Positions 1-16,713 of a stretch of DNA of 64,000 bases are shown here, in pieces. Under the pieces are notes generated by a model. That model was not told where the DNA came from. It worked only from the letters and a program-made list of their open reading frames with translations, and made no database searches. Position 1 is the stretch's first letter. Each line of letters opens with the position of its first letter. A program made the translations under genes and the position numbers. The DNA lies in NCBI RefSeq assembly GCF_011297335.1, contig NZ_JAAOTJ010000001.1:558001-622000 (forward strand), given 5' to 3'. This DNA comes from Catellatospora methionotrophica. Lineage in GTDB: Bacteria > Actinomycetota > Actinomycetes > Mycobacteriales > Micromonosporaceae.

Positions 1-647
1 TGCGCGGCCAGGCGCTGCCAGCCGGCGGTGTCCCGAGGCGGTGCGCCCTGCTGCCCGCTCAGGTGCCACGCCTCGCCCTCGTTCACCACCAGCACGTCGA
101 CGGCCGCCAGCAGCTCGGCGAACACGGGGTCCATCACCTTCGGCAGCGGAGCGGCGTTGAGCAGCACCGTCGCTCCCGCCGCGCGCGCCAGCAGGGCCGC
201 GTCCAGGCAGGTGGCGAGCGGGATCTCCAGCTGCAGCAGCAGCACCGCGCCCGGTGACAGCAGCTGCGGCAGCTGGGCGGTCAGCGGCTGGCCGTCGAGC
301 AGCTCGTTCGCGCCGGGAGCGACGACGATCGTGTTCTCCCCCGCACCCTCCACCACGATCATGGCCAGCCCCGTTGCCGCGCCGTCGATCGTGGTCAGGC
401 TCCCCGCGGGCAGCCCCTCAGCCTGCAGCGCGGTGCGCAGGTCCAGGCCGAACTGGTCCGCGCCGACCGCGGCGAACAGGATCGTGTCGGCCCCCATCCG
501 GCGCGCGGCGACGGCCTGGTTGCCGCCCTTGCCGCCGGGCCGGAAGGAGACCTCCGAGCCCAGCACGGTCTCGCCCGGATCGGGCAGGTGCGACACCGCC
601 ACGGTCAGGTCGAGGTTGACGCTGCCGACCACCGCCACCCTGGTCAT
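1..647 (-). CDS. rbsK: Ribokinase (PfkB family), C-terminus beyond left edge
   Basis: Cytoplasmic sugar kinase that should phosphorylate ribose, or a similar pentose, at O5 with ATP. The frame runs off the left edge, so only the first 215 residues are present. They start MTRVAVVGSVNLDL and contain the ribokinase N-terminal signature GGKGGNQA at residues 38-45. The C-terminal catalytic Asp and ATP-site motif GAGD lie outside the window. The ATG overlaps the stop of the upstream LacI-type regulator by four bases (ATGA), so the two are co-transcribed and translationally coupled. Regulator plus ribokinase suggests the end of a ribose-type uptake operon whose transporter would lie further left. 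The family is clear; the exact sugar is inference. Confidence 0.88.
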   Translation of the reverse strand, partial: MTRVAVVGSVNLDLTVAVSHLPDPGETVLGSEVSFRPGGKGGNQAVAARRMGADTILFAAVGADQFGLDLRTALQAEGLPAGSLTTIDGAATGLAMIVVEGAGENTIVVAPGANELLDGQPLTAQLPQLLSPGAVLLLQLEIPLATCLDAALLARAAGATVLLNAAPLPKVMDPVFAELLAAVDVLVVNEGEAWHLSGQQGAPPRDTAGWQRLAA

Positions 648-1702
648 CGTTTCCCCATTTCGTTCGTACTGGTCGGTGCGCTGGCGCGGCCGCCGCCGGG
701 CGGGTCGTCGCAGCCGCACGAGCCGCGGGCGAGCAGTTCGACAGGCAGCACCTGCGGCTGCTGTTCGGTGCCCGCGAGCTGCCCGAGCAGGTGGTCCATG
801 GCCACCCGGCCGAGCTGCGGGAAGGGCTGCACCATCGTGGTGAGCCCCGGAGTCGTGAACGCCCCCGGCGCGATGCCGTCGAACGAGGCCAGGGCCACGT
901 CGGTGGGGCAGCCGAGGCCCAGCTCGGCGATGGCCCGCAGGGCTCCGATCGCCTGCTGGTCGCTGGCGGCGAAGATCGCGTCCGGGCGGTCGCGCGGGTC
1001 GGCGAGGATCGCCCGGGTCGACTCGTACCCGGCGCGGCGGCCGAACGGCGCGTGCCAGGCGAGCATGTCGGCGGGGCGTACCCCGGCCGCGGTCAGCGCG
1101 TCGCGCCACCCGGCGACGCGGTCGGTGGCGGGCATGACGTCGCGCGGCCCGGCGATGCAGGCGATGCGGGTGCGGCCGTGGGCGAGCAGGTGCTCGACCG
1201 CGACCCGCGCGCCGCCCCGGTTGTCGACCAGCACCGCCGGGGCGGTGGCCCCGTCGACCTGCCGGTCCAGCGACACCCACGGCACCCGCGAGCGCTCCAG
1301 CTCCTCCAGGCAGCCGACCGGGCCGTGTGCCGGGACGAGGAACAGCCCGTCGACCTGGCGGGCCAGGAAGGTACGCACGTAGGTGGTCTGGCGCTGGTCG
1401 TCCTCGGCGGCGTTGCCGATCAGCAGCGTGTAGCCGCGGGCGAACGCCTCCTCCTCGATGGCGCGGGCCAGCTCGGCGAAGAACGGGTTCGCGTTGTCGG
1501 GCACCACCAGCCCGAGGGTCATGGTGCGGTTCATGCGCAGCGACCGGGCGATGCCGTTGGGCCGGTAGCCGAGCTGCTCGATCGCGGCCAGCACCTTCGC
1601 ACGGGTGTGCGCGGCGACCGGGCGTCCCCCGTTGAGGACATAGCTGACGACAGCCGGCGATGTTCCTGCCAGCTTCGCCACGTCAGCGCGCCGTACCGTC
1701 AC
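644..1702 (-). CDS. LacI-family transcriptional regulator (RbsR-like)
   Basis: A 352-residue repressor with an N-terminal LacI helix-turn-helix (RRADVAKLAGTSPAVVSYVL), a hinge helix, and a periplasmic-binding-protein-like effector domain (GLVVPDNANPFFAELA; DQQAIGALRA). The GTG at 1702 is chosen because GGAGG sits seven bases upstream of it; an upstream in-frame GTG at 1720 would place that ribosome binding site inside the gene. Downstream it overlaps the ribokinase start by four bases, so the likely effector is ribose, ribose phosphate or a related pentose. The last residues (GSCGCDDPPGGG) are low complexity. Autoregulation is probable; a candidate palindrome lies just upstream. Confidence 0.9.
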   Translation of the reverse strand: MTVRRADVAKLAGTSPAVVSYVLNGGRPVAAHTRAKVLAAIEQLGYRPNGIARSLRMNRTMTLGLVVPDNANPFFAELARAIEEEAFARGYTLLIGNAAEDDQRQTTYVRTFLARQVDGLFLVPAHGPVGCLEELERSRVPWVSLDRQVDGATAPAVLVDNRGGARVAVEHLLAHGRTRIACIAGPRDVMPATDRVAGWRDALTAAGVRPADMLAWHAPFGRRAGYESTRAILADPRDRPDAIFAASDQQAIGALRAIAELGLGCPTDVALASFDGIAPGAFTTPGLTTMVQPFPQLGRVAMDHLLGQLAGTEQQPQVLPVELLARGSCGCDDPPGGGRASAPTSTNEMGKR

Positions 1703-1766
1703 TCCAACCTCCGTCAACACGAGTTGCGTTTCAGCGAGGTTGCCAGGATGTGACTAGCGGATGTGG

Positions 1767-1774
1767 TTGCGCAA
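1767..1774. promoter_or_regulatory. Candidate operator upstream of the LacI regulator
   Basis: TTGCGCAA is a perfect 8-bp palindrome with the central CpG expected of LacI-family sites. It lies about 65 bp upstream of the regulator start. Short palindromes are common in GC-rich DNA, so this is only a candidate. Confidence 0.3.
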
Positions 1775-1941
1775 TACGTGTTGATAGCTGTTACCTGACC
1801 GAGACAACGGATCTTGTCGATCGCTGTGCTGGACCCGCTCGTCTGCCGTACGCCGTCCGATCGTGCCTGGTCGGGCCGTCGCGCCGAAAGCGCAGGTCAG
1901 GAGCGGGAGACGTCCGGGCCGTTACGGCCGGCGGAACGTGT

Positions 1942-2060
1942 CTAGCCGGACAGGTAGGTGCCGGGGTGCGGCCGGTGGCGCGGCGGAACGCGGCGATGAA
2001 GGCACTGGTCTTGCGGCAGCCGACTTCGCGGGAGGCTCCACCGCGAAAGATCGCTGTTTA
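1942..2060 (-). pseudogene. AraC-family regulator, C-terminal helix-turn-helix relic
   Basis: The minus strand encodes REVGCRKTSAFIAAFRRATG followed by RTP, which matches the second helix-turn-helix and tail of AraC/XylS regulators. A one-base shift near 1962 restores the usual end GTYLSG followed by TAG at 1944-1942. A second frame change near 2030 restores an upstream stretch of the type DLS...LPRE. Nothing of the first helix-turn-helix or the ligand domain can be seen above position 2060. It is a small remnant with at least two frameshifts. The family call rests on the SAFIAAFRRATG block, which is highly characteristic. Confidence 0.7.
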
Positions 2061-2453
2061 GTGTCGGCATGCGTGGTCAGACAGCACAAGATGGCACGAA
2101 AGGCGATCTTGAAACCGGCCGTAGCGGCTCCACCGACGGAAGCGGCACGAACGGGCGCAGCGGCGCCCTAACCCGTGCATGATCGCTCGACTTGCCAGGC
2201 AATCGGGCGGAACCGTCCCCAAGATACGCACGGGTGGGGGGCGAGGCTACTGGGCCGAGGGCCGCACCGGGCTCGACTGATCGGCGCATGCCACCGGGAA
2301 AGGCAACCTTCCGGTCAGGACCTCCGATGGGACGGTCCGGTGCGGTCGACGCCTGACTGTGCCGTGACCACACCGGGAGCGGTGTTCGAAGCCGGAGAGC
2401 GGAACGAGGAACGGGGCGACGCACCTCGACCCACCTTGAGCTACCTCCATCTA

Positions 2454-2467
2454 TGTTAGCGCTCACA
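2454..2467. promoter_or_regulatory. Orphan LacI-type operator TGTTAGCGCTCACA
   Basis: A 14-bp inverted repeat with one mismatch around the core AGCGCT. It fits the TGnnAGCGCTnnCA pattern of sugar-responsive LacI regulators in actinomycetes such as CebR. No gene start is adjacent; the nearest downstream gene on the plus strand is the AbfB-sigma gene 455 bp away. The second LacI gene in the window, at 60 kb, has a related palindrome. Confidence 0.5.
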
Positions 2468-2921
2468 TCACTGCGCCTGGTTCGGCGACGTCCAGAGCAG
2501 TCGAGCAACGGTGGAATGCGACCGGAGCCGACGCGGGCACGCCGATCCGGTATGCGCCGAGACTGCCAGAGTCCCCCTCCGTTCTCAAGTGGGCAGTCAC
2601 CGTCCCCCTGCCGCGGAATGGTCTGGGCAATCCGCTTTCGTGGCACGTATCACCAGGTGGAGACCCGCAGGAAGCATCCCGAATAGCTGCCGAAACGAAG
2701 TGGACATCAGCCACGGCGACCACTTTGATCGAGCCTGCATAACGTTTATCACCACATGCTTTCCGGCGTGTCGCGCCCAGATCGTTGTCGAGAAAAGTCG
2801 TTATGCGGCAACCCGACGTGAAGTCGCACCTGGTGACGGTTGCCCGAACCACGCACGGCCGCCTTGACGGGACGACCGCCGTCAGCCAAAGTCAACTCCC
2901 CCGATCCGCCACGACAGCGAT

Positions 2922-4463
2922 ATGGACATGCCGACCAGCAGCCCCGACGACGCCGCACTCGTCACCGCGGCGCAAGCCGGCGACCGGCGCGCGCTCGAAG
3001 CTCTACTCGACGCCTACCTGCCGTTCGTCTACACCATCGTGCGCCGGGCTCTGGACGCCGACCCCGACGCGGACGACGTGGTTCAGGAGACCATGGTCCG
3101 CGCCGTCCGCGAGCTGCGCGGCCTGCGCGACCCGTACACCTTCCGGGCCTGGCTGGGCACGATCGCCGTGCGCCAGGTGAGCACCCACCTGCAGCGGCGG
3201 CGTACGCCGCGGCCCGACGGCGATCTCGACGCCCTGACCGGGGTAGCCGACGTGCACGCGTCCTTCGAGGACCTGGCGGTGCTGCGGCTGGGCATCGCCG
3301 CGCAGCGTCGGCAGGCGGCGCGGGCGGCCCAGTGGCTGGAGACCGACGACCGCGTGCTGCTGTCGCTGTGGTGGCTGGAGGTCGCGGGCGGCTTGACGCG
3401 CACAGAGCTGGCGTCAGCGGCCGGCGTCAGCGTCGCCCACGCCGGGGTCCGGGTGCAGCGCATGCGCCAGCAACTGGAACAGTGCCGCGTTTTCGTCGCG
3501 GCCCTGGACCGGCGGCCCCGCTGTGCCGGGCTCGACGACGTGGTGACCGGCTGGGACGGCGTACCGGCCTCGGCCTGGCGCAAGCGCTTGACCCGGCACG
3601 TTCTCGCCTGCGCCGACTGCGCGGCCGGCAGCGGCGATCTGGTCGCCGCCGAGCGGCTGCTCACCGGGCTCGCCGTGCTGCCCGTGCCGCTGGCGCTGGC
3701 CGCGGCCGTGCTCGGCAAGGGCGCCACGGCCGCCGCGACCTCATCGGCGACGCTGGCCGCCACCAAGGCGGGCGTGCTCGGCCACCTGGCGAAGGTGTTC
3801 GCCGCCGCGCCGGTGACGGCCACCGCCGCGACCGGGTCCGTGGTCGCCGCGGCCACGGTCGCCGTGATCGCCTGGCCCGCGGCAGCGCCGCCATCGCCCC
3901 CGGCGGCCGCCGCGCCGCCGCCTGCGGCCACGACGGCCGCACCCGCGATCCCGGCCGTGCCGCGCCCGTCGGCGACCCGCCCGAGTCCCACGCCGAGCCG
4001 GGTGCAGCCGAGCCCGGCACGCGCGCTGACGGCCGGGCCGGTGTCGCTGGAGGCCGGCGGCGGACCCGGCCTGTACGTCACCACCGCCGACAGCGTGGGC
4101 GTGCTCGCCGCGCTGTCGGCCGCGAGCGCCTCCGCGGCACGGGAGCAGGCGACCTTCGAGGTCGTCGCCGGGCTGAACGATCCGAAGTGCTTATCCTTGC
4201 GGTCGGCTGACGGGCGGTATCTGCGCCACCTGTCGTGGCGGCTGCGGCTGGACGAGCGGATCGACACCGCACTGTTCCGCGGCGACGCCACCTTCTGCGT
4301 ACGCCCGGTGGCCGGGACCGGCACGGTCCAGCTGGAGTCGTCGAACTATCCGGGCTGGTTCATGCACCGGCGCGGCGGTCAGCTGTGGGTCGACCAGAAC
4401 GACGGATCGGCGGCGTTCCGGGCCGACAGCGCGTTCCGGGTCCGGACGCCGCTGACCGCCTAG
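2922..4463 (+). CDS. ECF sigma factor fused to zinc motif, TM helix and AbfB domain
   Basis: A 513-residue one-piece regulator. Residues about 14-85 are sigma region 2 (DADDVVQETMVRAVREL) and about 137-187 are region 4 with its helix-turn-helix (LTRTELASAAGVSVAHAGVRV). Next comes an anti-sigma-like zinc motif H226-x3-C230-x2-C233. A hydrophobic stretch at 247-260 and a clear membrane helix at about 296-318 follow. A Pro/Ala/Ser/Thr linker leads to a three-repeat AbfB (CBM42-type) beta-trefoil at 374-510, with the repeat hallmarks LESSNYPGWFMHRRGGQL and FRGDATF. AbfB domains bind arabinofuranose. The predicted topology is sigma domain inside and sugar-binding domain outside. The next three genes degrade arabinoxylan, so it may switch them on when side-chain arabinose is bound. 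The domains are seen; the signalling role is inference. Confidence 0.88.
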   Translation: MDMPTSSPDDAALVTAAQAGDRRALEALLDAYLPFVYTIVRRALDADPDADDVVQETMVRAVRELRGLRDPYTFRAWLGTIAVRQVSTHLQRRRTPRPDGDLDALTGVADVHASFEDLAVLRLGIAAQRRQAARAAQWLETDDRVLLSLWWLEVAGGLTRTELASAAGVSVAHAGVRVQRMRQQLEQCRVFVAALDRRPRCAGLDDVVTGWDGVPASAWRKRLTRHVLACADCAAGSGDLVAAERLLTGLAVLPVPLALAAAVLGKGATAAATSSATLAATKAGVLGHLAKVFAAAPVTATAATGSVVAAATVAVIAWPAAAPPSPPAAAAPPPAATTAAPAIPAVPRPSATRPSPTPSRVQPSPARALTAGPVSLEAGGGPGLYVTTADSVGVLAALSAASASAAREQATFEVVAGLNDPKCLSLRSADGRYLRHLSWRLRLDERIDTALFRGDATFCVRPVAGTGTVQLESSNYPGWFMHRRGGQLWVDQNDGSAAFRADSAFRVRTPLTA

Positions 4464-4742
4464 CGGCAAGAAATGCGATTGAAACATTTTCGGTCGTCTT
4501 GACGCCCGGCATGTTATCGGTCACATTCGACTGACGGACAGCAGGCGCGTGACACACGCAGCGCCTCGGCCACCGCCCGGAGCGGGCGGCGTCTTCCATG
4601 ACGCGCTCCACGGTGACCTGTGACCGTCGATTCCCCCTGCAGCACCGTGGACGGCCGTCCTGACACCCGCGCGGCCTACGACGGCGCCGCGTCGCGCCCT
4701 CGACCTGCCCTTTTCGTCCCGACTGATTCCAAGGAGGATGCC

Positions 4743-6269
4743 GTGACCGGCATCATCACCCGCACCCCGCCCACTGCCCGACGACGATCGTGGCAAGCCG
4801 TGCTGACCATGGCGGTGGTCACCGTACTGGCGAGCACCGGCATCGCCGTCGTCGCCGGCACCAGCGCGCAGGCCGCCACCGTGGACACCAGCGCCTGGTA
4901 CGTCCTGGTCAACCGCAACAGCGGCAAAGCCCTGGACGTGTACAACTTCTCCACCGCCGACGGCGGCCGCATCACCCAGTGGACCCGGGGCACCGCCAAC
5001 AACCAGCAGTGGCAGTTCGTCGACTCCGGCAGCGGCTACTACCGCCTCAGGTCCCGCCACTCGGGCAAGGTCCTCGACGTCTACAACTTCTCCACCGCCA
5101 ACGGCGGAGCCGTCGTCCAGTGGGCCGACCTGAACGGGACCAACCAGCAGTGGCGGCTGGCCGACTCGACCGACGGCTACGTCCGGTTCATCAACCGCAA
5201 CAGCAACCGGGCCCTGGAGGTGCAGGGCGCGTCGACCGCCGACGGAGCCAACATCGTCCAGTACGACGACTGGGGCGGCAACAACCAGCAGTGGCAGCTC
5301 GTCCGGGTCGGGTCCAACCCGACGCCGAGCCCGAGCGCGTCGTCGTCACCGCCGCCGGGCGGCTGCTCCCTGCCGTCGTCCTACCGGTGGACGTCGACGG
5401 GTTCGCTGGCCAACCCGAAATCGGGCTGGGTGTCGCTGAAGGACTTCACGTACGCGCCCTACAACGGCCGTCACCTGGTCTACGCCACCACGCACGACAA
5501 CGGGCCGAGCTGGGGCTCGATGAACTTCAGCCTGTTCACGAACTGGTCCGACATGGCCTCGGCCAGCCAGAACACCATGTCGTCGGGCACTGTCGCACCC
5601 TCGCTGTTCTACTTCGCCCCGCGCAACATCTGGATCCTGGCCTACCAGTGGGGCCCGACCGCGTTCTCCTACCGGACCTCCAGCGACCCCACCAACCCCA
5701 ACGGCTGGTCGTCGGCGCAGACCCTGTTCTCCGGCAGCATCTCCGGCTCCGGCACGGGACCGATCGACCAGGCGGTCATCGGTGACAGCACGAACATGTA
5801 CCTGTTCTTCGCCGGGGACAACGGCAAGATCTACCGGGCGAGCATGCCGATCGGCAACTTCCCCGGCAGCTTCGGCTCGACCTCCACGGTCATCATGAGC
5901 GACTCGACGAACAACCTGTTCGAAGCCGTCCAGGTGTACAAGGTCGCCGGGCAGAACCAGTACCTCATGATCGTCGAGGCGATCGGCTCGCAGGGCCGGT
6001 ACTTCCGCTCCTTCACCGCCACCAGCCTCGGCGGCTCGTGGACCCCGCAGGCCGCCAGCGAGAGCAACCCGTTCGCGGGCAAGGCCAACAGCGGAGCCAC
6101 CTGGACCAACGACATCAGCCACGGTGAGCTGCTGCGCAGCAACGCCGACCAGACCATGACCATCGACCCCTGCAACCTGCAGCTGCTCTACCAGGGTCGC
6201 TCGCCCAACTCCGGCGGCGACTACGGTCTGCTGCCCTACCGGCCCGGCCTGCTCACCCTGCAGCGCTGA
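4743..6269 (+). CDS. Secreted GH62 alpha-L-arabinofuranosidase with N-terminal CBM13
   Basis: Removes arabinofuranosyl side chains from arabinoxylan outside the cell. The GTG at 4743 is preceded by AAGGAGGATGCC; in-frame codons further upstream lack a ribosome binding site. The 508-residue product has a Sec signal ending AQA before ATVDTS, a CBM13/ricin-type lectin module with three QxW repeats (about 47-189), a Pro/Ser/Thr linker and a GH62 five-blade propeller (about 203-508). Putative catalytic residues are D234 (SLKDFT), D342 (PIDQAV) and E394 (LFEAVQ), spaced as in known GH62 enzymes. The first 190 codons and the ribosome binding site are near-duplicates of the GH43 gene at 7972. It has its own terminator. 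Confidence 0.93.
4881..5310 (+). repeat. CBM13 module, copy A (in GH62)
   Basis: First of three near-identical DNA copies encoding a ricin-type lectin domain; the others are at 7515-7940 and 8110-8540. Identity with copy C extends upstream through the signal peptide end and also covers the ribosome binding site and first codons, pointing to recent duplication or gene conversion. Confidence 0.9.
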
Positions 6270-7943
<1,674 letters not shown>

Positions 7944-7971
7944 CCCACGTCATCTCGGACAGGAGGATGCC

Positions 7972-10068
7972 GTGACCGGCATCGGCACCACCCCGCAGGC
8001 GCGCCCACCGCGCAGAGCCTGGCGCACGACCCTGGCCGGCGCCCTGGTCACCGTGCTGGCAGCCACCGGCCTGGCCGTCGTCGCCACCACCGGCGCGCAG
8101 GCCGCCACCGTGGACACCAGCGCCTGGTACGTCCTGGTCAACCGCAACAGCGGCAAAGCCCTGGACGTGTACAACTTCTCCACCGCCGACGGCGGCCGCA
8201 TCACCCAGTGGACCCGGGGCACCGCCAACAACCAGCAGTGGCAGTTCGTCGACTCCGGCAACGGCTACTACCGGATCAAGTCCCGCCACTCCGGCAAGGT
8301 CCTCGACGTCTACAACCTCTCCACGGCCAACGGGGCGTCGGTCGTGCAGTGGGCCGACGGCAACGGGACCAACCAGCAGTGGCGGCTGGCCGACTCGACC
8401 GACGGCTACGTCCGGTTCATCAACCGCAACAGCAACAAGGCCCTGGAGGTGCAGGGCGCGTCGACCGCCGACGGAGCCAACATCGTCCAGTACGACGACT
8501 GGGGCGGCAACAACCAGCAGTGGCAGCTCGTGCCGGTCGGCAGCACGCCGCCGCCGTCCAGCCCGCCGCCGGGCGGGACCTTCACCAACCCGGTGCTGTG
8601 GCAGGACTTCGCCGACATCGACATCATCCGGGTCGGCGACGCCTACTACTACTCCGCCTCCACCATGCACTACTCACCCGGCGCGCCGATCCTGCGCTCG
8701 TACGACCTGGTCAACTGGGAGTTCGCCGGGCACTCGGTGCCGGTGCTCGACCATTCGAGCGCGTACAACCTCAGCGGCGGGCGCGCCTACGTCAAGGGCA
8801 TCTGGGCGTCGACGCTGAACTACCGCCCCTCCAACAGCACGTTCTACTGGATGGGCTGCATGGAGTTCAACAAGACCTACGTCTACACGGCCTCGGCCGT
8901 CGACGGGACCTGGTCGAAACGTTCCACGATCAACAACTGCTACTACGACGCGGGGCTGCTCGTCGACGACAACGACACGATGTACGTCGCGTACGGCAAC
9001 AGCAACATCAGCGTCGCGCAGCTGTCGGCCGACGGGCTCAGCCAGGTCCGCACCCAGCAGGTCTTCAGCACCCCGTCATCGGTCGGCACCCTGGAGGGGG
9101 CCCGGTTCTACAAGCGCAACGGCAGCTACTACATCTTCCTCACCCGGCCCGCCAACGGGCAGTACATCCTCAAGTCGTCCAGCCCGTTCGGCCCGTACAC
9201 GATGCAGCAACTGCTGCTCAACCTGCCCGGACCTGTCTCCGGCGGCGGCGTGCCCCACCAGGGCGGCCTCGTCCAAACCCAGAACGGCGCCTGGTACTAC
9301 ATGGCGTTCGTCGACTCCTACCCCGGCGGGCGCATCCCCGTGCTCGCCCCCGTCACCTGGACCGCCGACGGCTGGCCGCAGATCCAGCTCGTCAACGGCG
9401 CCTGGGGCACCAGCTACCCCAAGCCGCTGACCACCCGCACGGTCAAACCGATGATCGGCACGGACACGTTCAGTGGCACGGCACTGGGACCCCAGTGGGA
9501 GTGGAACCACAACCCCGACACCAGCCGGTACGCCGTCAACAACGGTCTGCGCCTGCAGACCGCGACGGTCACCGGCGACCTCTACAGCGCCCGCAACACC
9601 CTCACGCACCGCATCCAGGGGCCGACCTCGACGGCCACGATCCAGCTCGACTACTCGACGATGCGCGACGGTGACCGGGCAGGCCTGGCGATGCTGCGCG
9701 ACTCCTCGGCGTGGATCGGCGTCAAACGCGACAACGGCACCACCCGCGTCGTCATGACCAACGGCCTGACCATGGACAGCAGCTGGAACACCACCGGCAC
9801 CGGCACCGGCACCGAGAACGCCTCGGCGGCGATCTCCGGCGGGCGGATCTGGCTGCGCGCCAACGCCGACATCAGACCCGGCAGCGGACGCCAGGCCCGC
9901 TTCTCCTACAGCACCGACGGGACCAACTTCACCTCGCTGGGCGCGGCGTTCACGCTCAACAACGCCTGGCAGTTCTTCATGGGCTACCGGTTCGCCATCT
10001 TCAACTACGCCACCCAGGCCCTAGGCGGCGCGGTGACGGTGTCCCGGTTCGACCTGACCACGCCCTGA
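7972..10068 (+). CDS. Secreted GH43 beta-xylosidase/arabinofuranosidase with N-terminal CBM13
   Basis: Exported glycosidase expected to act on xylo-oligomers or arabinosyl groups released by the preceding enzymes. The GTG start follows AGGAGGATGCC, the same ribosome binding site as the GH62 gene. The 698-residue product has a Sec signal (GAQA before ATVDTS), a CBM13 module (about 46-189), a short Pro/Ser linker, and a GH43 five-blade propeller from FTNPVLWQDFAD. The likely base Asp lies in QDFADIDII, the modulating Asp in CYYDAG and the acid Glu in TLEGARFYK. A C-terminal beta-sandwich (about 500-698, from GTDTFSGT) resembles the GH43 C2 domain. Xylosidase versus arabinofuranosidase specificity cannot be decided from sequence alone. 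Confidence 0.9.
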   Translation: MTGIGTTPQARPPRRAWRTTLAGALVTVLAATGLAVVATTGAQAATVDTSAWYVLVNRNSGKALDVYNFSTADGGRITQWTRGTANNQQWQFVDSGNGYYRIKSRHSGKVLDVYNLSTANGASVVQWADGNGTNQQWRLADSTDGYVRFINRNSNKALEVQGASTADGANIVQYDDWGGNNQQWQLVPVGSTPPPSSPPPGGTFTNPVLWQDFADIDIIRVGDAYYYSASTMHYSPGAPILRSYDLVNWEFAGHSVPVLDHSSAYNLSGGRAYVKGIWASTLNYRPSNSTFYWMGCMEFNKTYVYTASAVDGTWSKRSTINNCYYDAGLLVDDNDTMYVAYGNSNISVAQLSADGLSQVRTQQVFSTPSSVGTLEGARFYKRNGSYYIFLTRPANGQYILKSSSPFGPYTMQQLLLNLPGPVSGGGVPHQGGLVQTQNGAWYYMAFVDSYPGGRIPVLAPVTWTADGWPQIQLVNGAWGTSYPKPLTTRTVKPMIGTDTFSGTALGPQWEWNHNPDTSRYAVNNGLRLQTATVTGDLYSARNTLTHRIQGPTSTATIQLDYSTMRDGDRAGLAMLRDSSAWIGVKRDNGTTRVVMTNGLTMDSSWNTTGTGTGTENASAAISGGRIWLRANADIRPGSGRQARFSYSTDGTNFTSLGAAFTLNNAWQFFMGYRFAIFNYATQALGGAVTVSRFDLTTP
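8110..8540 (+). repeat. CBM13 module, copy C (in GH43)
   Basis: Third copy of the lectin-domain DNA, closest to copy A. The pair also share the ribosome binding site and the codons VTGI at the start, so the whole 5' end of the gene was copied. Confidence 0.9.
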
Positions 10069-10076
10069 ACGACGCT

Positions 10077-10110
10077 CGCACGCGGCTCGGCACCCGCCGA
10101 GCCGCGTGCG
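10077..10110. terminator. Bidirectional terminator between GH43 and the methyltransferase
   Basis: CGCACGCGGCTCGGC (10077-10091), a four-base loop and the perfect 15-bp complement (10096-10110). It lies between convergent genes and can serve both. Confidence 0.88.
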
Positions 10111-10115
10111 CCGCG

Positions 10116-10853
10116 CTACGGCGTGCTCACCAGCCGGTAGCCGACGTCGGCCGTGCCCGTGGCGTCCGGGCTGCCGTGGCGCTCCTGCCACGCCCCACTG
10201 TCCAGATCGGCGCGCAGCCGCCGCATCGCCTCGTCCACCCGGACCGGGTCGAGCTTGGCCAGCGACGAGATCGAAGCCCGGACCGCCGGGTCGAGATACG
10301 CGTGGGGCCGGTTCCAGTACGCGGCCAGGAAACCGTCGGTGCAGTCGTGCGGCACCGGCAGCGCCGTCACCCGCGCCGGGGCCAGTTCCCGGCTGATGAA
10401 CTCGCAGGTGGCCAGCCCTCGCTCGGCGTCGGCGATCTCGGGCAGGTAGTCGGCGACCAGCCAGAACCGCGAAATGACCGCGGGATCCCAGGTGACCACC
10501 ACCTGGCGGCGCGAGACGCGGCGCAGCTCGGCCAGCCCGCGCGCGGGGTCCGTCCAGTGGTGCACGGTGAGCACGGCCAGGCCGGCGTCGAAGCTCCCTT
10601 CGGCGAAGGGCAGCCGCTCGGCGACGGCCCGTACCACGGACGCGCTGCCCGGCCGACGCTGCGCGATCATCACCGGCGACGGCTCCACCGCGAGCACGGC
10701 CCGGTCCACGGGCTCGTAGGAGCCGGTCCCCGCCCCCACGTTGACCACGGTGCGGGCGTCACCGAGCGCGTCGTCGATGATCGCGGCCAGACGGGGATCG
10801 GGGCGGCGCTGCTCGGCGTAGCCGGTGCCGAGAGTCCGGTAGGGATCGCTCAT
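10116..10853 (-). CDS. Class I SAM-dependent methyltransferase (substrate unknown)
   Basis: A 245-residue cytoplasmic methyltransferase. The SAM-binding motif I is VVNVGAGTGSYEP (about residues 36-48), with an acidic motif II in LAVEPS and a post-II region VHHWTDPARGLAELRRV typical of UbiE/BioC-like type 11 enzymes. Nothing in the sequence points to the acceptor. It ends at the bidirectional terminator shared with the GH43 gene and has no obvious operon partner; a VOC protein follows upstream on the same strand 49 bp away and could be co-transcribed. The ribosome binding site before the ATG is weak. Confidence 0.85.
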   Translation of the reverse strand: MSDPYRTLGTGYAEQRRPDPRLAAIIDDALGDARTVVNVGAGTGSYEPVDRAVLAVEPSPVMIAQRRPGSASVVRAVAERLPFAEGSFDAGLAVLTVHHWTDPARGLAELRRVSRRQVVVTWDPAVISRFWLVADYLPEIADAERGLATCEFISRELAPARVTALPVPHDCTDGFLAAYWNRPHAYLDPAVRASISSLAKLDPVRVDEAMRRLRADLDSGAWQERHGSPDATGTADVGYRLVSTP

Positions 10854-14868: not shown

Positions 14869-16590
14869 TCAGGTCGACGGCGTCGTCACGCAGGCCCATT
14901 CGCTGCTGGCGGCCGGGGCGTAGGCCGATACGCCGCCGGAGTGGTAGGCGCGGACCTTGAAGCACATGTAGGTGCCCGCAGCCAGCCCGTCCCACTGGTA
15001 GGTCGTCGTGTCGGCGCCGACGTTGCGTGAGGTGTTGCCGTTGGTGATGGTGAAGCCGGTCTCGTCGGCGGCGTTGTCGCTCCACTGCAGGCGGATCGTC
15101 CCGGCGTCGACCGCCGTCGCCGACAGGTTCGTGGGCGCGGCCGGTCCCGATCCGTCCAGGCTGGTCGCGCAGACCCAGTTGCCCTGCGCGGCCGGGAAGT
15201 ACGCCGTCACGCCGGACGCGTCGAAGGCCCGGACCTTGAAGCACGAGTGGGTCGCGGGCGACAGCCCGGTCCAGTCGTAGCTGGTGGTGTTCGCCGGGAC
15301 GTCGTGCGAGGTGTTGCCGTTGATGACGGTGAAGCCGGTCTCGCTCGCCGACCGGTCCCGCCACCGCAGGCGGATCGTGTCGGGGCCGACCGCTGTCGCG
15401 GTCAGGTTGTTCGGGGCGACCAGGGACCGGGCCACCCGCGCCTTCGGGCTCGCGGCGCTGGCACTGGGCACCGGACTGGTGACGGCAGGACTGGTCGGCA
15501 CGCCGACCGTGTCGTCGCGTCCGGCGGGGCTCGGGACGGAGCCGCTCGGGCTCGCCGCGACGTTCGGTGACGGGGTATCCGGGGATTGGCTGAGCACGAA
15601 CGCCGTCGCCGCGACGGCCGCGACGATCAGGCCGGCGGCGACGGGCAGCAGCAGCCGCCGACCGCCTCGCCTGTCCGGGACGGTCTGGCGGCGTGTCGGC
15701 ACCGGGGCCACGGCCTGGGGCCGGGTCGGCAGCGACGCCGTCGCCTGCTCCCCCGGCACCGGGGCCGACGCTTCGCGAGCCGCGGCGGCGAGCGCGGCGG
15801 CTGACGGCCAGCGCTGCGCCGGGTCCTTGGCCATGGCCCGTGCCACGATCGCCCGGACGGCGGGTGGCACGTCGGGCGGCAGCGGGTCCGGTGCGTCGTG
15901 GACGTGGCGCAGGGCGAGTTCGACCATGCTGTCCCCGGCGAACGGCAGCCGCCCGGCCAGGCACCGGTAGGCGACGACGCCGAGCGCGTAGATGTCGGTG
16001 GCGGGGGTGGCGGGGTGGCCCATGGCGCGTTCCGGCGCGAGGTATCCGGCGGTGCCCACCAGCATCCCGGTGGTGGTGAACCCGGCCGCGCCGGCCGACC
16101 GGGCGATGCCGAAGTCGGTGACGAGCGTGCTGCCGTCGGGGCGTACCAGCAGGTTGCCGGGTTTGATGTCGCGGTGGGTGACGCCTTTGGCGTGGGCGGC
16201 GTGCAGGGCGTCGGCGGCCTGCGCGACCAGGCGCATCGTGGCCGCGGCGTCGAGGCGCCCGACCCGGGCCAGGGTCTGCGCCAGCGACTCGCCGTCGATG
16301 AACTTCATGACCAGGTAGACGCCCGCGGCCGGGTCGTCACCGAAGTCGTGCACCTCGACGACGCCGGGGTGGCTGATGGTGGCCATGATGCGGGCCTCGG
16401 TGCGGAACTGGTCGACGAAGTTCGGCTCGTCGGGCCGCCCGTCGAGCAGGCACTTGACCGCGACGACGCGGTCCAGGACCTGGTCGTGGGCCCGCCACAC
16501 CTCACCCATGCCGCCGCTGCCGACGCGCTGGTCGAGCCGGTACCGTCCGGCCAGCACCGTTCCCGCTTGGACCACTGCGACCACCTTCAC
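14869..16590 (-). CDS. Ser/Thr protein kinase with TM helix and two external FN3 domains
   Basis: A membrane receptor kinase. The cytoplasmic kinase domain (about residues 10-265) has GSGGMGEVW, VAVKCLLDG, HRDIKPGNLL, TDFGIA and a GTAGYLAPE activation loop. A basic Pro-rich juxtamembrane region and one TM helix (LLLPVAAGLIVAAVAATAFV) follow, then a Ser/Pro linker and two fibronectin III domains that are near-repeats of each other (ETGFTVINGNTSHDV and ETGFTITNGNTSRNV). FN3 replaces the PASTA domains of PknB. The GTG at 16590 follows AAGGA; an in-frame ATG at 16614 has no ribosome binding site. The external ligand is unknown; FN3 domains suggest polysaccharide or protein sensing. Confidence 0.88.
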   Translation of the reverse strand: MKVVAVVQAGTVLAGRYRLDQRVGSGGMGEVWRAHDQVLDRVVAVKCLLDGRPDEPNFVDQFRTEARIMATISHPGVVEVHDFGDDPAAGVYLVMKFIDGESLAQTLARVGRLDAAATMRLVAQAADALHAAHAKGVTHRDIKPGNLLVRPDGSTLVTDFGIARSAGAAGFTTTGMLVGTAGYLAPERAMGHPATPATDIYALGVVAYRCLAGRLPFAGDSMVELALRHVHDAPDPLPPDVPPAVRAIVARAMAKDPAQRWPSAAALAAAAREASAPVPGEQATASLPTRPQAVAPVPTRRQTVPDRRGGRRLLLPVAAGLIVAAVAATAFVLSQSPDTPSPNVAASPSGSVPSPAGRDDTVGVPTSPAVTSPVPSASAASPKARVARSLVAPNNLTATAVGPDTIRLRWRDRSASETGFTVINGNTSHDVPANTTSYDWTGLSPATHSCFKVRAFDASGVTAYFPAAQGNWVCATSLDGSGPAAPTNLSATAVDAGTIRLQWSDNAADETGFTITNGNTSRNVGADTTTYQWDGLAAGTYMCFKVRAYHSGGVSAYAPAASSEWACVTTPST

Positions 16591-16713
16591 AGGCCAGATC
16601 CTTGAAGTCCACATCGACTGGCAGTAGGTTACGGCCCCCGTTCGCGATCTTCAGCCCGGGTGCCCCGATCCACCGCACGGCCGGCCGCCGCGCCGCACCG
16701 CACACCGCCTTTC

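Follow-up and report, generated by a model that had tools for sequence, protein, structure and literature searches.

What does a sigma factor fused to a carbohydrate-binding module do beside a cluster of arabinoxylan-degrading genes, and which promoters does it serve? This question is raised by a gene in a window of 64,000 nucleotides from the soil bacterium Catellatospora methionotrophica (the whole stretch of DNA analysed here; contig NZ_JAAOTJ010000001.1), in which a one-piece sigma gene is followed by GH62, GH10 and GH43 genes. A first-pass annotation, made from the letters of the window, had proposed that the protein is a membrane-tethered sigma factor that meets arabinoxylan outside the cell and turns on these three genes.

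Domain layout of the sigma protein and its known counterparts

The sigma open reading frame (2922-4463, plus strand) starts with ATG, encodes 513 amino acids and has a GC3 of 0.93. Its product is ordered as ECF sigma part, zinc motif, one likely TM helix, Pro-rich linker and CBM42/AbfB trefoil (Table 1). Pfam placed Sigma70_r2 at residues 28-94 (E 1.8e-13) and did not call region 4 separately, which is included in the NCBIfam match to TIGR02937 (sigma70-ECF; residues 24-187, E 1.4e-16), in agreement with the two sigma regions recognised in the first-pass annotation. ECF sigma structures also occur among the Foldseek matches of the protein model; the VIA-align structure listing scarcely probes this part. 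Pfam, TIGR02937 and Foldseek together describe a sigma factor with regions 2 and 4 only, as in ECF sigma factors.

Table 1 Features of the sigma locus and its neighbours (window coordinates)
Feature	Position	Strand	Basis
LacI-family regulator, candidate ligand-controlled repressor	644..1720	-	Pfam
LacI-type operator ATGTTAGCGCTCACAT	2453..2468	.	exact; 0.02 matches expected in window
Leftward family-type promoter: GTTATG 2743-2738, N17, GTCG 2720-2717	2717..2748	-	score 17.1
Family-type ECF promoter of sigma itself: A-tract, GTTATG 2800-2805, N17, GTCG 2823-2826	2793..2826	+	score 11.1
Sigma-70-like basal promoter TTGACG-N17-CAAAGT	2864..2892	+	aligned with three Catellatospora relatives
One-piece ECF sigma factor with fused regulatory extension	2922..4463	+	ORF, Pfam, NCBIfam, structure model
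Sigma regions 2 and 4, residues 1-188	2922..3485	+	Pfam, TIGR02937; helices in model
Putative zinc anti-sigma domain, ligands C201, H226, C230, C233	3522..3620	+	residue conservation
First hydrophobic stretch, residues 246-264	3657..3713	+	hydropathy, K/R charge
Likely single TM helix, residues 298-316	3813..3869	+	hydropathy and positive-inside bias; low confidence in model
Pro/Ala/Thr-rich linker, residues 319-370	3876..4031	+	sequence
AbfB/CBM42 beta-trefoil, residues 372-508	4035..4445	+	Pfam, model, structure matches
Sigma-70-like promoter TTGACG-N17-CACATT upstream of GH62, overlapped by LacI-type operator 4511-4526	4498..4526	+	shared with L011
Secreted CBM13-GH62 arabinofuranosidase	4743..6269	+	Pfam, E 3e-154
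Secreted GH10-CBM13 xylanase	6465..7943	+	Pfam, E 5e-115
Secreted CBM13-GH43 enzyme	7972..10068	+	Pfam, E 7e-38

The H-x3-C-x2-C motif noticed earlier at residues 226-233 reads HVLACADC, and it is joined by an additional invariant cysteine, C201, that had been missed. Zinc-binding anti-sigma (ZAS) domains hold their metal by His/Cys-x(24-25)-H-x3-C-x2-C, a spacing matched by C201-x24-H226-x3-C230-x2-C233 of the sigma protein. All four residues were kept in 21/21 AbfB-type proteins and in 45/45 proteins of a wider sample covering every sampled sensor type. The zf-HC2 profile matched 2/27 proteins with a best E of 0.02, which is below significance, and a profile search among PDB sequences returned no anti-sigma match to the zinc domain.

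Two hydrophobic stretches follow. The first (hydropathy 2.3) lies inside a family-wide LLxGLALLPVP segment and, judged from its sequence, is probably not membrane-spanning. The second has a hydropathy of 1.8. Among 60 proteins (that of the window and its relatives), K/R residues were more numerous before this stretch than after it in 47, equally numerous in 8 and fewer in 5. This excess supports a single TM helix that places the C-terminus outside the cell, making the one helix first sketched at about 296-318 the likely topology on grounds of charge. Residues 250-348 have pLDDT values below 50 in the AlphaFold model. An arrangement with two TM helices and the trefoil inside is disfavoured by the charge, the Pro-rich linker and an invariant cysteine pair of the trefoil (C423/C459).

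The outer three-repeat AbfB trefoil, expected at 374-510, was recovered by Pfam (AbfB, residues 376-507, E 3.3e-36), and the structure prediction that had been suggested as a check indeed folds this part as a trefoil (pLDDT about 93), with GH54 AbfB and CBM42 structures as top matches. Among the residues known to line the arabinofuranose pockets of CBM42 (PMC12493170), H436/W439/D455 of the beta pocket are retained and the alpha and gamma pockets are degenerate; H436 and D455 are invariant in 21/21 AbfB-type proteins, as are C423 and C459. Residues 372-508 have the three-repeat trefoil and the His/Asp pocket that characterise CBM42/AbfB modules, and the sigma protein is predicted from the model to carry this fold with one intact arabinofuranose pocket. 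Domains, zinc-type residues and K/R bias together uphold the earlier picture of a membrane-tethered ECF sigma factor that carries its own zinc motif and exposes a CBM42 sensor on the outside.

This architecture is not new, since actinobacterial proteins built as a fusion of a sigma part, a zinc finger, a TM segment, a Pro-rich stretch and a carbohydrate-binding part have been published as ECF52/ECF53 (PMC5826349, PMC8999054, PMC10766802). The window protein has the C-terminal extension of this type, its zinc part being without a zinc-finger profile match. It has already been proposed that the outside module does the sensing and that proteolysis or a shape change ensues (PMC5826349, citing Pinto and Mascher 2016), and PMC10766802 describes predicted hydrolase and binding domains for which experimental validation was lacking. 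By domain architecture, the ECF52/ECF53 protein SCO4117 of Streptomyces coelicolor has the same one-protein layout, but it differs in its sensor (a smart00776 domain versus AbfB/CBM42), in its reported promoter (CSGYN-17-SRHA versus GTTATS-N16/17-GTC here) and in its surroundings, as the window sigma, unlike SCO4117, lies beside hemicellulases. Excerpts of PMC8999054 name IutY (Pseudomonas putida, ECF243) as the only characterised case; it joins a sigma to its membrane anti-sigma, sets a precedent for proteolytic release and answers the siderophore aerobactin, and no carbohydrate-binding domain is described for it there.

The nearest working analogues are RsgI proteins, which carry CBM42 or another sensor (PMC12203970, PMC4711584). 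RsgI is a separate anti-sigma, whereas the window protein combines ECF sigma and zinc motif in one chain; a Pfam scan of the window protein found no RsgI domain, and its sigma part matches ECF models. Its trefoil lies 1.4 Å from the sensor of the anti-sigma RsgI5 of C. thermocellum, a resemblance that supports the SigI/RsgI-like function suggested in the first-pass annotation. The CBM42 modules of AtAbf43C and GH54 AbfB share the trefoil and the His/Asp sugar pocket (PMC12493170) but sit on enzymes, in contrast to the sigma-borne trefoil with one of three pockets intact. Within the openly licensed literature searched, what is new here is the promoter code, its occurrence ahead of arabinoxylan genes, and the match to CBM42; no published description of the GTTATS-N16/17-GTC promoter was found there, which is no proof of novelty. 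With a promoter motif, a defined sensor pocket and, next to the sensor gene, a GH62 gene present in one copy, this putative nutrient-sensor class is open to direct reporter test and would give actinobacteria polysaccharide sensing comparable with that of clostridial SigI/RsgI.

Sensor types and gene neighbourhoods among relatives

Relatives were collected by a scan of genome contigs, and the best 80 loci, whose counts are no census, comprised 22 further AbfB-type proteins (L009-L028, L060, L085), 35 proteins whose longer extension is of another type (group C) and 23 short proteins (264-354 aa) that lack an outside domain. Of the short proteins, 22 reach a stop codon within the locus and one (L058) runs to the locus end. 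Pfam analysis of 39 proteins (the 35, L060, L085 and the paralogues L002 and L005 from the window's own genome) revealed CAP (18), Glyco_hydro_cc (3), AbfB (2), Lcl_C (1) and beta-helix (1) domains. In a tree of the sigma and zinc part (83 rows), whose bootstrap had not settled, 8 changes are required to explain the distribution of the AbfB label, and supported branches force no fewer than 5 of them. Gain or loss of the AbfB sensor has thus probably occurred repeatedly in the family.

Two features of the relatives were seen in passing. L002 (contig 23) encodes 740 aa with a pectate-lyase-like beta-helix as outside part, and a family-type site with a score of 22.9 lies past its 3' end, pointing away. 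The 23 short relatives (L029-L054 and others) consist of the sigma and zinc part only, and in those inspected the next genes are of GH5, GH10, GH95 or other RicinB type.

Comparing neighbourhoods, an arabinoxylan gene was present within 10 kb at 15/23 AbfB-type loci (window included) versus 0/35 loci with other full-length sensors (Fisher 1.6e-8), a contrast inflated by closely related loci, as there are only 2-3 independent contrasts; on average the trait changed in the same direction in 1.2 of these, and in the opposite direction in none. It is further weakened by flanks shorter than 9 kb on one side in 17/35 controls and several AbfB loci. Neighbours were scored as GH62, GH10, GH43, GH51, GH54 or another AbfB gene (profile E <1e-20), not counting the AbfB sigma itself and omitting the paralogues L002 and L005 with their short flanks; the 23 short proteins, 5 of which have arabinoxylan neighbours, were kept out of the comparison. 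CAZyme labels came from small local profiles built from Pfam-located domains, on genes from a simple caller, and Pfam analysis of 30 neighbours showed GH62, GH10, GH43, GH54 and GH51 domains, with some neighbours carrying other domains or none. No arabinoxylan gene was found within 10 kb at 8/23 AbfB-type loci, including L011, which ends at a contig edge. As for the nearest relatives, L009 is without an arabinoxylan gene and L010 has GH10 and lacks the GH62 operon. The survey of sigma-AbfB fusions called for in the first-pass annotation shows that adjacency to hemicellulase-type genes recurs.

These data also bear on a reading in which the trefoil would merely anchor the protein to wall or substrate and the true signal would be redox or zinc at C201/H226/C230/C233. 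The invariance of these residues over all sensor types sampled would suit such a role, as would the degeneration of two of the three sugar pockets, but sensor type tracks neighbour type in the above comparison and the beta-pocket His and Asp never vary among the AbfB-type proteins, and we regard the anchor role as very improbable.

A promoter motif common to sigma and CAZyme genes

Words enriched upstream of AbfB-type and other-sensor sigma genes centre on GTTAT. When 27 sites from the 35 other-sensor genes were aligned, a second box emerged unsought 23-24 bases past the start of GTTAT, giving a site of W3-NN-GTTAT(C/G), a spacer of 16-17 and GTC(TCC or G), with the consensus W3-NN-GTTATS-N16/17-GTC. 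A matrix was built from 24 distinct group C sites (3 of the 27 dropped as near-copies), and because it was trained solely on non-AbfB relatives, its test on AbfB-type loci is not circular; the score of the second box has a floor, so that a match may have a poor one.

On the AbfB-type loci, the matrix gave 23 matches scoring at least 13, distributed over 18/23 loci, versus 0.58 matches per 100 kb of one strand in shuffled sequence. Around L009-L028 (20 relatives), an upstream same-strand match was found for 10/46 CAZyme-type versus 2/243 other genes (Fisher 2e-7), for 9/46 versus 2/243 when a score of at least 15 was applied, and for 8/26 versus 4/263 when a narrower arabinoxylan set was used (Fisher 6e-7), while 300 column-permuted matrices reached a mean of 0.18 CAZyme genes and a maximum of 3. 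Matches precede GH62 (L013, L017), GH10-GH62 (L012, L027), GH10 (L014) and AbfB genes (L018, L020, L022, L023), with an imperfect second box in L014 and L027; beyond the gene table, they were seen at an L011 esterase, an L017 GH62, an L019 AbfB gene (start inferred) and, at minus 18187 in L015, about 255 bp before a GH54-RicinB frame. The two non-CAZyme matches belong to an L016 gene that precedes a fucosidase gene and clusters with the LacI gene of the window, and to an L024 alginate-lyase-like gene (Pfam). The promoter motif is common to the family sigma genes and to CAZyme genes near the AbfB-type relatives, and together with the neighbourhood contrast it supports the family-level link to arabinoxylan genes that had been proposed.

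A site scoring at least 11 within 250 bp of the sigma start, on the sigma strand, was present at only 5/23 AbfB-type genes (window, L009, L011, L012, L014), so autoregulation is not general. In the 35 group C loci, 30 matches of at least 13 fell at the sigma gene of the locus, a count that includes the training sites, and another 7 lay at other places, one of them before a RicinB ORF. At short-protein loci, sites lie before GH10 frames (L040, L041, L071), GH54 (L071) and a GH43 gene (L059). In an alignment of seven Streptomyces loci, the interval from sigma to the following gene contains GTTATG together with an A-rich tract in 6/7 (L032 has ATTATG); the following gene is GH5-RicinB in both loci tested by Pfam (L029, L037). 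We see even chances that these loci represent an actinobacterial modular family of one-chain transmembrane sigmas. The sigma part and GTTATS-N16/17-GTC would be held constant in such a family, and the sensor outside the cell (AbfB, CAP, glycosyl hydrolase core, beta-helix or none) would be swapped, so that it matches the adjacent CAZyme targets; the family would be an independent counterpart of SigI/RsgI re-using the CBM42 sensor.

Several loci, including L030, L032 and L037, have a good family-type promoter on the minus strand near the 3' end of sigma, antisense into the gene. Back-to-back pairs on opposite strands were observed upstream of sigma in the window (2743/2800), L011 (9800/9857), L014 (9841/9901) and L058 (9840/9898), with start points 57-60 bp apart; L009 (37 bp) and L012 (137 bp) differ.

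Control of the window genes and the proposed mechanism

In the window's own genome, a strict promoter pattern had 3 matches, including the one at 2743 (reversed control, 1), and a looser pattern had 4, of which the GTTAT ones are 2743 and 2800. As the looser matches equal the control count (4), genome-wide predictive strength is at chance and weight comes from place and conservation. The best family-matrix scores before GH62, GH10 and GH43 were -3.3, -4.2 and -7.2 versus 11.1 at sigma, that is, no family-type promoter precedes these genes, and neither the promoter scanner nor the family matrix found a separate promoter for the 6465 gene. The proposal that sigma turns on the three genes is therefore not supported in the form first given. 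GH62 (the sole GH62 match in a genome with 9 AbfB domains) has a sigma-70-like promoter overlapped by the LacI-type operator ATGTTATCGGTCACAT, which, with the missing family site, leaves direct sigma control of the 4743 gene unsupported. Over 1700-10200, where chance would yield 0.4 promoters, a sigma-70-type consensus scanner called none, so both TTGACG promoters are proposed on conservation only.

This leaves the sigma factor two possible routes to GH62/GH10/GH43, namely read-through that starts at the sigma promoter, or an unrecognised site. Sigma and GH62 lie on one strand, 280 bp apart, and no intrinsic terminator matched on the plus strand in 1700-10200, which makes read-through possible. 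A G+C-rich hairpin in the GH62 leader could limit it; as a notable structure this hairpin was set aside, being no more stable than shuffles.

The operator opens another explanation, by which the GH62-GH10-GH43 operon would be under a LacI-type repressor and a sigma-70-type promoter, with sigma regulating only itself and perhaps the leftward transcript, and the adjacency being a leftover of gene order. Two exact operator copies (2453, 4511) occur in the window, and ATGTKANCGNTMACAT is found at 14 places in the genome (L096-L109) versus 0 in the reversed control; 12/14 have a glycoside-hydrolase- or RicinB-type gene in the 3 kb examined, counting L102 via its overlap with L099 and L104 via a weak profile match. 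Gene types there are AbfB, GH51, GH62, GH43, GH95, GH127, alpha-galactosidase, GH5 and GDSL-RicinB; the remaining places are one with a sugar-kinase gene and 2453 itself. These operators outline a candidate genome-wide arabinose/plant-polysaccharide regulon, and we infer that the LacI-family regulator at 644 binds them. L011 shares the operator and the TTGACG promoter. The GH62 gene of the window is not preceded by a sigma site. Against this, hemicellulase genes bear a sigma site in L012, L013, L014, L017 and L027, and read-through from sigma is possible in the window. We give repressor control without a sigma contribution a substantial chance, somewhat short of even. The operator was rejected as a general AbfB-locus feature, with at most two mismatches in 7/20 relatives (L010, L011, L013-L016, L018) and exact copies in two (L011, L016).

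The account that we favour as probable is that the protein is an ECF52/ECF53-type polysaccharide sensor spanning the membrane as a single chain. The sigma-70-type promoter at 2864 would make the sigma protein, whose zinc domain would hold regions 2 and 4 of the sigma part to the membrane. Binding of an arabinofuranosyl polysaccharide outside would lead to cleavage at the TM helix, or to a shape change, and free the sigma, which would start at the GTTATG-N17-GTCG sites of its own gene (2800) and of the leftward transcript (2743). Read-through from the sigma promoter would raise GH62-GH10-GH43, for which the LacI-type repressor would provide a second, sugar-controlled promoter at GH62. For the window, the probable picture is thus a sigma factor that drives its own gene; transcription may then run on into GH62, and LacI would act as a second control.

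Activation could also proceed without proteolysis, if outside binding altered the zinc domain and freed the tethered sigma or if the holoenzyme worked at the membrane. No site-2-type protease gene is present among the annotated neighbours, which are a minority of all neighbours. Since such proteases are often encoded away from their partner genes and few neighbours are annotated, this absence is a weak point in its favour. IutY, in contrast, requires Prc and RseP, and truncation data for SCO4117 are taken in PMC8999054 as favouring cleavage; we therefore consider activation without proteolysis unlikely.

Between the LacI gene and sigma, about 1 kb (1721-2740) has no coding signal, GC being equal at codon positions. 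It contains operator 2453, and leftward transcription from 2743 would cross it and enter the LacI gene, so that a feedback loop is possible. A decayed esterase gene in this interval was rejected, as the best tblastn E was 0.001 (a short L015 frame of 99 codons) and codon-position GC is flat. Each of the GH62, GH10 and GH43 proteins has a ricin-type lectin domain, and their CBM13 modules are very similar in translation, which suggests copying within the operon. Farther downstream, 14869-16614 (minus strand) encodes a Ser/Thr kinase with two C-terminal fibronectin type III domains (Pfam).
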